NCBI RefSeq assembly: GCF_900129225.1
Contig: NZ_FQUG01000003.1
Location: forward strand, 124,001-188,000
Reading direction: 5' to 3'
DNA: 64,000 nucleotides
Source of the DNA: Schwartzia succinivorans DSM 10502
GTDB taxonomy: Bacteria > Bacillota > Negativicutes > Selenomonadales > Selenomonadaceae
The notes beneath the pieces are model-generated. The model was not told where the DNA came from. It ran no database searches and saw only the letters and a program-made list of their open reading frames with translations. The position numbers were made by a program, and so were the translations under genes. How positions within the stretch are numbered: the stretch's first letter is position 1; each line of letters opens with the position of its first letter. Positions 17,356-49,109 of the stretch are shown here, in pieces.

Positions 17356-18099
17356 ATGTCAGGACATTCTAAATGGGCAAATATCAAACGTAAAAAGGGC
17401 GCAAACGACGCAATCCGTGGAAAGATTACGACGAAAATCGGCCGTGAGATTACGATTGCAGTTCGTATGGGCGGTCCGGATCCGGTCGGCAACATGCGTC
17501 TGAAGCTGGCTTTGTCCAAAGCAAAGGCAAACAATATTCCTAAGGACAACATTCAGCGTGCCATCAAAAAAGGTCAGGGCGCTGCTGACGGAGCAAATTA
17601 CGAAGAGTTCACATACGAGGGCTATGGTCCGGGCGGTGTCGCAATGCTTTTGGATATCATGACGGATAACCGCAACCGTGCGGCTGCTGATGTGCGCCAT
17701 CTTTTCTCCAAGCATGGCGGAAACCTCGGTGAGACAGGCTGCGTTTCGTGGATGTTCAAGCAGAAGGCTGTTTTCGTAGTCGAGAAGGAAAAATTCGAGG
17801 ACGAGGATGCTCTGATGGATATCGTTCTTGAGGCAGGCGCGGAAGATATGAAGGCAGAGGATGATGTATTTGAAATCACTGCCGAGCCGGGAGATTTCAA
17901 TGCTGTCGAGGCTGCACTTGCTGAAAAGGGTATTGAGACTGCATCCGCTGAAATCACGATGGTACCTGATACGACAGTTCATCTCGAGGGTAAGGACGCG
18001 CAGAAGATGCTCGACCTCATTGACGCATTTGAGGAGTCCGATGATGTTCAGAACGTCTATGCAAACTATGAGATTGATGAGGATTCCCTCGAAGGCTGA
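17356..18099 (+). CDS. YebC/PmpR family protein (TACO1-like)
   Basis: A 247-residue cytoplasmic protein of the YebC/PmpR/TACO1 family. The ATG follows AAAGGAGCGG. Hallmarks are SGHSKWANIKRKKGANDAIR at the N-terminus, GYGPGGVAMLLDIMTDNRNR in the middle and an acidic C-terminus (YEIDEDSLEG). Members have been described as transcription regulators (next to ruvC in many genomes) and, more recently, as factors that relieve ribosome stalling; I cannot tell these roles apart from sequence. It sits before ruvCAB as in many bacteria, but here a terminator and a 270-base repeat array separate them. Confidence 0.93.
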   Translation: MSGHSKWANIKRKKGANDAIRGKITTKIGREITIAVRMGGPDPVGNMRLKLALSKAKANNIPKDNIQRAIKKGQGAADGANYEEFTYEGYGPGGVAMLLDIMTDNRNRAAADVRHLFSKHGGNLGETGCVSWMFKQKAVFVVEKEKFEDEDALMDIVLEAGAEDMKAEDDVFEITAEPGDFNAVEAALAEKGIETASAEITMVPDTTVHLEGKDAQKMLDLIDAFEESDDVQNVYANYEIDEDSLEG

Positions 18100-18112: not shown

Positions 18113-18136
18113 CACCCGGAGAAATCCGGGTGTTTT
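18113..18136 (+). terminator. Rho-independent terminator after the yebC-like gene
   Basis: CACCCGGA/TCCGGGTG closes a GAAA loop and is followed by TTTTC. Confidence 0.88.
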
Positions 18137-18143
18137 CTTTTAT

Positions 18144-18417
18144 AATGCAGACATAGGAAGTTTTGCCTTTGGCAAAACTTGAATTAATGCGTTATAACTC
18201 GGCGTGCGCCTCGTTGAAATGCCACAGAGGAAAGTTTGTCATGGACAAACTTTGATTAAAGGCATTATAACTCGGCGTGCGCCTCGTTGAAATGCCACAG
18301 AGGAAAGTTTGTCATGGACAAACTTTGATTAAAGGCATTATAACTCGGCATGCGCCTCGTTGAAACGCAGACATAGGAAGTTTTGCCTTTGGCAAAACTT
18401 GAATTAATGCGTTATAA
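18144..18417 (+). repeat. Four-unit palindromic repeat array (A-B-B-A)
   Basis: Four units of 53-54 bases start at 18144, 18218, 18291 and 18364 and are joined by three 20-base linkers (CTCGGC, then G/A, TGCGCCTCGTTGA). Units 1 and 4 (type A) have the inner stem AAGTTTTGCC/GGCAAAACTT. Units 2 and 3 (type B) are identical to each other and have AAAGTTTGTC/GACAAACTTT. Outer stems also match within each unit: AATGCC/GGCATT in B, AACGCA/TGCGTT in unit 4. Each unit ends in TTATAA. The linker itself can fold (GGCG/CGCC). The array fills the 360-base gap between yebC and ruvC. Related single units occur at 27564, 47418 and 49056. Confidence 0.92.
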
Positions 18418-18418
18418 T
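18389..18418 (+). promoter_or_regulatory. Promoter embedded in the last repeat unit, driving ruvC
   Basis: TTGGCA at 18389-18394 lies in the descending arm of the hairpin. TATAAT at 18413-18418 forms the right end of the unit, with 18 bases between. The ruvC start is 41 bases downstream, and no better promoter is visible. Confidence 0.6.
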
Positions 18419-18458: not shown

Positions 18459-18953
18459 ATGCTGGTACTTGGAATCGACCCCGGTACGGCTATCTGCGGC
18501 TACGGATTTGTTGAAGCAGCCCAGGGAAGCCGTCTGATTCCGCATGAATATGGAGCTATATTGACGAGCCCTAAAGCACGCATGCAGGACAGACTCATGA
18601 AGCTTTATGATGAGCTTGATGAGCTTATCAAAAAATATAAGCCTGATGCAATGGGTGTTGAACAGCTGTTTTTCAACCGAAATGTTACGACGGCGATACC
18701 TGTCGGGCAGGCGCGTGGAATTGTGCTTTTGGCTGCGGCGAAAAATAACATTGAGCTTGTTGAGCGCACGCCGCTGCAGATTAAGCAGTCAGTTACAGGC
18801 TACGGAAAGGCGACGAAGGAGCAGGTTATTTACATGGTGACGAAGCTTTTGCATCTTCCCGAGCCGCCGAAGCCTGATGATACGGCAGATGCGCTGGCGG
18901 CGGCTATATGCACGCTGCATTGCTTGGACAGTATTCGATGGAGGAACGGTTGA
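18459..18953 (+). CDS. ruvC: Crossover junction endodeoxyribonuclease RuvC
   Basis: A 164-residue Holliday-junction resolvase that cuts junctions prepared by RuvAB. AAAGGAGCGG precedes the ATG. Catalytic acids are visible: Asp7 in LGIDPGT, Glu in MGVEQLFFNRN, and the C-terminal Asp pair in PPKPDDTADALAAAICTLH. The length is normal (about 165). It opens a tightly packed operon that runs through ruvA, ruvB, queH, a spoIID-like gene, queA and on to radC, probably driven by the promoter in the repeat unit just upstream. Confidence 0.96.
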   Translation: MLVLGIDPGTAICGYGFVEAAQGSRLIPHEYGAILTSPKARMQDRLMKLYDELDELIKKYKPDAMGVEQLFFNRNVTTAIPVGQARGIVLLAAAKNNIELVERTPLQIKQSVTGYGKATKEQVIYMVTKLLHLPEPPKPDDTADALAAAICTLHCLDSIRWRNG

Positions 18954-27563: not shown

Positions 27564-27617
27564 TTATAACGCCTTCGTTCCAGTTTTGCCGTAGGCAAAA
27601 CTTCCTCTATCAGCGTT
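27564..27617 (-). repeat. Single palindromic repeat unit, minus orientation (type A-like)
   Basis: On the minus strand it reads AACGC...GAGGAAGTTTTGCC, loop TAC, GGCAAAACTGG...GGCGTTATAAT. It shares the inner GTTTTGCC/GGCAAAAC stem, the outer AACGC/GCGTT pairs and the TATAAT end with the 18144 array, and it is preceded by the linker half CGCCTCGTTGA. Confidence 0.85.
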
Positions 27618-27628
27618 TCAACGAGGCG

Positions 27629-27692
27629 TGAGATATGCTCACCGCCAGTTATTTGTCCCAACCCCCACTTACAGAAGTGGGGGACATCCTTT
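27629..27692 (-). mobile_element. 64-base hairpin element inside the repeat linker
   Basis: In the 18-kb array the linker reads GCCGAG next to GGCG with only three bases between (on this strand). Here those three bases are replaced by 64 bases holding a perfect CCCCCACTT/AAGTGGGGG hairpin with ACAG loop (27662-27683) and a second stem near 27630-27646. This looks like a palindromic end of an IS200/IS605-type or similar small non-autonomous element, but no transposase is present and the assignment is a guess from shape. Confidence 0.45.
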
Positions 27693-27901
27693 GCCGAGTT
27701 ATAAGCGCGCTTTTAGCTGTTGGGATGATTTTGTGTGTGATTGCGATTGCTTGTCTGGCAGTAGGAATACCGGTTGTTGATTTTGTAATTCCAATGGGAG
27801 AACTGTTTTTTATTCCGGCAGTATATTTTATAGCGTTATCGGAAGCATATTTTATGACCAAACTGCTCCAATACGAGGAAGCAGAAAACCAAATTTATTG
27901 A
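27635..27901 (+). CDS. Hypothetical small membrane protein whose start lies inside a repeat
   Basis: An 88-residue reading frame. Residues 1-23 (LTASYLSQPPLTEVGDILC) are translated from the repeat and hairpin element. The rest, from about residue 24, has two membrane helices: ALLAVGMILCVIAIACLAVG and LFFIPAVYFIALSEAYFM. No ribosome site precedes ATG 27635, and GTG 27737 is an internal alternative. The repeat therefore seems to have replaced the original 5' end of the gene. It may be non-functional. No family is recognised. Confidence 0.4.
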   Translation: MLTASYLSQPPLTEVGDILCRVISALLAVGMILCVIAIACLAVGIPVVDFVIPMGELFFIPAVYFIALSEAYFMTKLLQYEEAENQIY

Positions 27902-32591: not shown

Positions 32592-32597
32592 TGTAGA

Positions 32598-32721
32598 TGT
32601 TGCAGGGGAGCCGCGAAGGCGGCTGAGAAGGAATACCTGACTCTTTGAACCTGATCAAGTTTAAGCTTGCGTAGGGAGCAACAGAGGATGGGAGTATGCC
32701 GGCTGCAGAGCCGGTTTTTTT
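32598..32721 (+). promoter_or_regulatory. TPP riboswitch (THI element) with transcription terminator
   Basis: The aptamer runs 32598-32683: closing stem TGTTGC/GCAACA, the pyrimidine-sensing arm with CTGAGA followed by AGGAATACC, and the pyrophosphate arm with CCTGATC and GTAGGGA. The expression platform is a terminator at 32698-32721 (GCCGGCT/AGCCGGT with a run of seven T), 17 bases before the thiM start. Bound TPP is expected to stop transcription of thiM-MTH1187-thiE. Confidence 0.95.
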
Positions 32722-49055: not shown

Positions 49056-49109
49056 AACGCAAAGAGGAATGTTTTGCCTATAGCAAAACTTGAACAATTG
49101 CATTATAAT
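49056..49109 (+). repeat. Single palindromic repeat unit with TATAAT end
   Basis: AACGCA...GAGGAATGTTTTGCC, loop, GCAAAACTTGAAC...TGCATTATAATAAACA. It matches unit 4 of the 18144 array over its whole length, including the ATAAACA tail. The TATAAT (49104-49109) lies 18 bases after ATAGCA. The UPF0173 gene starts 55 bases downstream. Confidence 0.88.

Follow-up and report, generated by a model that had tools for sequence, protein, structure and literature searches.

A probable Correia-like mobile repeat of Selenomonadaceae with a predicted outward promoter and its four-unit array upstream of ruvC

Introduction

Bacterial genomes contain several classes of small, dispersed, intergenic and non-coding repeats, among them the ERIC, BOX and RUP-type elements. 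The REP/BIME sequences, which are considered together with RAYT transposases, are likewise intergenic and comprise many hairpins and arrays. For the Correia elements (CREE) of Neisseria, the published account gives at least 100 dispersed copies of about 150 bp together with shorter forms, and places a -35 and a partial -10 sequence inside the gene-proximal end such that the flank completes the -10. It also reports that the opposite end begins with six bases resembling a -10 hexamer, and that many copies lie 5' of genes (PMC2649163). IS200/IS605 elements have hairpin ends and insert on the 3' side of a fixed sequence of four or five nucleotides, without target duplication (PMC7290912). Template switching, and its mimicry of compensatory change, has also been published (PMC8794818).

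The window analyzed here is a stretch of 64,000 nucleotides of the Schwartzia succinivorans DSM 10502 genome (contig NZ_FQUG01000003.1, positions 124,001 to 188,000 of the forward strand). It contains an array of hairpin units between two genes which, from their protein sequences and gene order, we take to be a yebC-family gene and ruvC. The explanation we favor, and hold to be probable, is that these units correspond to the right-hand half of a non-autonomous mobile repeat, ~140 nt long and dispersed in Selenomonadaceae genomes. This repeat is probably Correia-like, with a predicted outward promoter, and the last unit of the array would drive ruvC. A literature search, limited in its terms and coverage, turned up no publication describing a repeat of this kind from either Schwartzia or Selenomonas.

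Results

A repeat finder and the sequence itself place four units in the yebC-ruvC gap (18144-18416), arranged in the order A-B-B-A with a period of 73-74 nt (Table 1). The units are 52-53 nt long and are separated by 21-nt linkers. As a sequence-only reading of the locus had already described, correctly on all points checked, there are two subtypes with perfect 10-bp inner stems of different sequence, AAGTTTTGCC/GGCAAAACTT in type A and AAAGTTTGTC/GACAAACTTT in type B. Three pairs differ between these stems, with both sides altered at each, and the outer stems are also altered on both sides, with a T-G wobble in unit 1. The two B units (2 and 3) are identical across all 52 nt. The inner units end in TATAAC, a poorer -10 than TATAAT, and the array is without the side hairpins of the left module found in full-length copies. 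RuvC is 99% identical to the RuvC of a Schwartzia MAG.

Table 1. Positions of the array, its neighbors and further copies of the element in the window
Feature	Position	Strand	Basis
yebC-family gene, upstream	17356..18099	+	own gene calls; name from protein sequence and gene order
Intrinsic terminator of yebC (CACCCGG...CCGGGTG and T-rich run), immediately left of array	18113..18141	+	read from sequence
Unit 1, type A; T-G wobble in outer stem; left hairpin module absent	18144..18196	+	sequence, repeat finder, model match G000:C15:142144-142196
Linker, shrunken left hairpin module, ACTCGGC-GTGC-GCCTCGTTGA	18197..18217	+	sequence; comparison with full-length copies
Unit 2, type B	18218..18269	+	repeat finder, model match
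Linker, identical to 18197..18217	18270..18290	+	sequence
Unit 3, type B, same as unit 2	18291..18342	+	repeat finder, model match
Linker, one-base difference (ATGC)	18343..18363	+	sequence
Unit 4, type A, terminal	18364..18416	+	repeat finder, model match
Predicted -35 hexamer TTGGCA, formed by hairpin loop and 3' arm	18389..18394	+	18-nt spacer, as in most other copies
Predicted -10 hexamer TATAAT, right end of last unit	18413..18418	+	sequence
ruvC, gene taken as driven by terminal unit	18459..18953	+	own gene calls, protein comparison; name from protein sequence and gene order
Full-length 142-nt element copy, both side arms present	27564..27705	-	model match, comparison of copies
Older diverged single unit, ends TATAAT, same-strand gene 57 nt on; common to sister species	49056..49107	+	model match, gene placement

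In the sister species the same gap holds a single type B unit, whose left module is short and whose TATAAT is equally far from the start, and the leader from TATAAT to the ruvC ATG is conserved. Among 49 ruvC-region loci from named genomes, our model matched this gap only in the sister species. The array is thus a lineage-specific addition in which a single unit was expanded or replaced. The identical B units fit the recent duplication that had been proposed from them and from the A-B-B-A order. The four units would stem from insertion or tandem duplication, and their left modules would have shrunk to short linkers, giving the 73-nt period. The predicted promoter of ruvC is likely to be the last unit, which lies downstream of the yebC terminator.

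Each unit folds strongly, both as RNA (-16.1 to -18.1 kcal/mol, z -4.0 to -4.8, with none of 200 shuffles equal) and as DNA (z -4.2 to -5.1), the outer stem of unit 1 being absent from its best DNA fold. The covariation check that the sequence-only reading proposed was made on two alignments of genomic copies. The first, from the same genome, was chosen by sequence pattern from 30 loci and retained only units of 52-53 nt (43 of the 48 pattern matches); 94.1% of its cells are paired and its covariation score is 0.252, compared with 0.130 for shuffled alignments (0/500 as high) and at most 0.056 for slid ones, a signal that is mostly the single A/B split. The second spans genera (43 rows, of which 42 are distinct and two come from our genome; from the 124 matches we left out G001, which belongs to the same genus, as well as weak matches and repeats of near-identical copies in G003). 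Here 95.1% of cells are paired, and the score of 0.350 exceeds those of shuffled (0.138, 0/500 as high) and slid (at most 0.077) controls; three pair types (CG, UA, GC) are seen at one outer pair and four (UA, GC, AU, CG) at one inner pair. Two of the five measures used were not above shuffles in either set, namely pairs with a change on both sides (156/500 own-genome, 40/500 cross-genus) and further pair types (498/500 and 347/500). Since this is so, and since the counts are of sequences and not of independent events, the alignments are good evidence for kept pairing and no gauge of how often pairing was restored.

In genomes G003 and G021, from two other genera, many near-identical copies stop sharply at flanks that are unrelated, as expected of a MITE-like non-autonomous mobile repeat, and these copies fix the ends of the whole element. 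A full copy consists of TATAAC, a left module, GA, a right module corresponding to the units described above, and TATAA, and measures about 132-142 nt without inserts. The left module is a stem enclosing two side hairpins, the stem being AACGAGGC/GCCTCGTT or variants of it: G003 has AACGAGGC/GCCTCGTT and G021 has AACGAGCT/AGCTCGTT, again a paired change. The form usual in our own genome, AACTCGGC/GCCTCGTT, has two mismatches. Preceding the 92 own units of a later set (105 matches less 13 on the opposite strand), we find CTCGTTGA 27 times, the pairing form GAGTTGA once and other sequences 64 times.

At E<=1 the covariance model matches our own genome 128 times, some of the matches being partial or on the opposite strand. 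With these removed, and a few matches up to E 0.6 retained, there are 98 copies grouped into 73 arrays. Matches occur in 11 of 41 genomes of relatives (34 in G007 and 60 in G021) and, class-wide, in 39 of 300 genomes, 37 of which belong to the same family. Presence within genera is patchy and copies are locally near-identical, arguing that the element is mobile.

Several variants of the element were observed. In two G003 loci (L311, L319) the element consists of its left hairpin only and retains the ATAAC...GTTA ends, which suggests that each module can occur on its own. At 19 places (own loci include the L096:1318 region, L033 and L017) an insert of ~26 nt, composed of GCGACGCGAAGCTAGT, a small hairpin and AA, is nested in the element at one of two fixed positions, between the modules or in a side-hairpin loop; its stem varies with compensation (GCC/GGC, GCTC/GAGC, CCC/GGG). 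At L010 (G000:C13:333208 region) a normal unit is followed downstream by a second one of like architecture and wholly different stems (AACTTAAAAGATAATTTTTTGGCAAACATTATCCTTTAAGTTATAAT), which is conserved in the sister species. This second unit is absent from the matches of the R1 model, so the family is larger than counted. For the window array, Rfam gave nothing at the gathering score, and the sole Rfam match in the window lies elsewhere (a TPP riboswitch at 32594-32694, 73.1 bits). Among three full-copy loci searched at E<=1, one (L290) matched CsrC at 21.7 bits, compared with a cut-off of 61, and we take this match as chance.

The right end of the Schwartzia copies resembles an outward sigma-70-type promoter, predicted as TTGGCA-N18-TATAAT, in which the -35 lies within the hairpin loop and 3' arm and the 18-nt spacing is found in most copies. 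The terminal hexamer is TATAAT in 51 of the 73 own arrays. With gene starts and gaps taken from our own simple gene finder, a same-strand start follows within 120 nt of the end in 58 of the 73 own arrays (median 49 nt), 31 of 37 in the sister species and 15 of 21 in G007. So short a leader leaves little room for another complete promoter. In codirectional gaps, 45 own arrays run with the genes and 3 against them (binomial p 5e-10, computed for 43/46); the corresponding counts are 20 to 0 in the sister species and 12 to 1 in G007, where 7 of 21 copies have a perfect TTGACA-N18-TATAAT. The link between TATAAT and a near start is only marginal (44/58 vs 7/15, Fisher p = 0.055). At one locus (L009:1655-1824, 103 bits) a cobalamin riboswitch begins about 21 nt past the TATAAT of a terminal unit, which is where the predicted transcript should begin.

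Decay of the copies is uneven. Of those scoring below 60 bits, 26 of 32 have a 5' half that is more decayed than the promoter half, the 3' arm through TATAAT being kept (Wilcoxon p = 3e-5), whereas this asymmetry is absent from those of at least 70 bits (11 to 21 of 36). The loss of the 5' arm from decayed copies that retain the other arm and TATAAT points to selection at resident sites on the promoter, not on the hairpin. A copy upstream of a gene could take over its transcription, and the promoter half would then be kept by selection while the remainder decays. The promoter is not common to all members of the family, as the right end of the G021 copies is without a -35 and the young copies there, 11 in number, lie mostly 3' of genes. 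A codirectional bias is nevertheless still present in G021 (9 to 1 of 15), and so part of the orientation bias may reflect insertion and not promoter selection.

At the left ends TA precedes TAAC in 53 of 60 cases, and the right ends read TTATA in 59 of 60 and TTATG in one; only about seven terminal bases are inverted. With such ends, duplication of TA or TATAA is indistinguishable from a fixed target. At C14:188871, one of eight sites queried, the sister species has GGTATAATAATAG without the element and our own genome has GGTATAAC...GTTATAATGATA, which fits a duplication of TATAA or TA, or insertion 3' of TATAA without duplication. Of 12 G003 sites queried, three were examined in relatives; the leaders align poorly there, and the element is present at none of the three. 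One right end coincides with the native TATAAT of the relatives, and two insertions (L270, L266) lie downstream of a native promoter, so we dropped the rule that insertion is always into a -10 box. Insertion into a -10 box fits C14:188871 well, and for C13:163769 a plain promoter occupies the corresponding position.

No autonomous element was recognized at nine G003 left ends that are without a right-module partner, and we found no terminal inverted repeats matching one, the inverted bases numbering about seven. Equal-scoring G021 matches were also considered as autonomous candidates and rejected, similarity among the 11 inspected loci stopping at the ~140-nt element. A multi-copy IS605-type element (L072) lies at many contig ends of our own genome, and its copies are probably the reason for the assembly breaks. 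It was discarded as a source of the repeat, as the end motifs of the repeat were not seen there.

Discussion

Throughout the genome and in other genera, paired changes preserve the fold of the units, and in this respect the sequence-only reading stands. Its further proposal, that the paired changes are caused by selection on structure as RNA or cruciform DNA, is not established at these sites, given the decayed and the palindromic copies. We consider that the pairing reflects the mobile stage of the element, to which hairpin pairing would matter, and/or template switching, and give weight to both.

Template switching between the arms of a quasi-palindrome yields paired changes without selection on structure, and that it accounts for them here is a serious possibility, if one short of an even chance. 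Its direct sign is that in five of 180 copies (92 own units and 88 chosen others), from four genomes, the palindrome is uninterrupted and takes in the internal loop, which is normally unpaired. The right module of these copies (L096:478-529, L234, L256, L258, L364) is palindromic over its whole length, perfectly or nearly so. The other 175 copies, however, keep an asymmetric internal loop (edit distance >=4), indicating some selection, and covariation persists in the 5-bp outer stem past the loop, which arm-to-arm copying alone would not predict. Template switching probably contributes without being the sole cause. Since young copies of the element coexist with decayed ones retained for the promoter only, the element offers a clean case in which to ask what share of 'compensatory' hairpin change comes from template switching and what share from selection.

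The mobile repeat that we favor requires an enzyme, and we judge it unlikely that this is an IS200/IS605-type (Y1) transposase moving the element as single-stranded DNA and inserting it 3' of an ATAA-type target without duplication. Such an enzyme would suit the hairpins near both ends, the ATAA at both ends of young copies and the head-to-tail arrays that share one TATAA. It would also suit the single strand switch on the largest contig of the near-complete genome G273 (26 of 29 among the copies listed, counted by eye with one opposite-strand duplicate dropped), yet gene orientation accounts equally well for that switch, and replication-strand bias, being inseparable from gene orientation, was set aside. 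TA duplication by another enzyme type suits the ends equally. Moreover, PF01797 does not track the repeat: it has no match in G007 and G021 despite their many copies, and matches are present in four repeat-free genomes. A RAYT/Y1 mobilizer is thus unsupported, and the analysis recognized no other gene that would mobilize the repeat.

Selection on a structured RNA or cruciform DNA at each site, with the units acting as RNase III sites, mRNA stabilizers or supercoil-sensitive cruciforms, seems to us improbable. It would explain the cross-genus covariation, with up to four pair types, as well as the strong RNA and DNA folds, and most young G021 copies lie just after genes, where transcription would cover them. 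Against this, 26 of the 32 decayed copies break the 5' arm and retain the 3' arm, the own transcript of the promoter unit would begin past the hairpin, and the usual left-module stem of our own genome is imperfect. Rfam offers no gathering match for the array and only the one weak CsrC match in three loci.

A regulon, in which the palindrome is a transcription-factor operator and the copies are binding sites at promoters, not mobile DNA, is very improbable: the palindrome does adjoin the -35 at many promoters, but stem sequence varies by copy and genus while pairing stays, near-identical copies of 135-142 nt have unrelated flanks, presence within genera is patchy, and array content at the same gene differs between sister species.

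If the mobile, promoter-bearing repeat is the right explanation, 58 of 73 arrays in one small genome place copies of a mobile sequence directly before gene starts, and repeat-driven promoter turnover would be observable between sister species. A bolder version, which we offer as speculation, is that the element is a self-healing promoter transposon. It would settle at TATAA sites, many of which in Schwartzia would belong to native promoters, and its right end would there restore the -10 at the same distance from the gene and bring its own -35, so that dozens of native promoters may have been replaced. The hairpins would have to stay paired for a structure-reading enzyme, and subfamilies lacking the -35, as in G021, would lie after genes.

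How does the element compare with described repeats? By description, not by sequence, it resembles the ERIC, BOX and RUP-type repeats in being small, dispersed, intergenic and non-coding. With REP/BIME sequences it shares many intergenic hairpins and arrays, but it is much larger, modular and has a promoter at its end, and two carriers have no PF01797 gene. It is like the IS200/IS605 ends-only elements (PATE) in its subterminal hairpins, in its head-to-tail arrays and in the short, fixed sequence resembling a target at either end. It differs from these in that two copy-rich genomes (G007, G021) have no Y1 transposase and that the resident IS605-type copy (L072) is without the element's end motifs.

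The closest analog appears to be the Correia element of Neisseria, the likeness lying in the way of working and not in any Correia-specific sequence. The two are similar in size, copy number and promoter parts at the ends, and an outward -35 and a partial -10 completed by the flank are present in our element as a way of working only. The Schwartzia repeat differs in belonging to another lineage, in having its promoter at one end in nearly all copies with only about seven terminal bases inverted, and in stems that vary between copies and genera with pairing kept. The element is of a general kind already known, probably a promoter-bearing mobile repeat, with stems that vary while their pairing persists.
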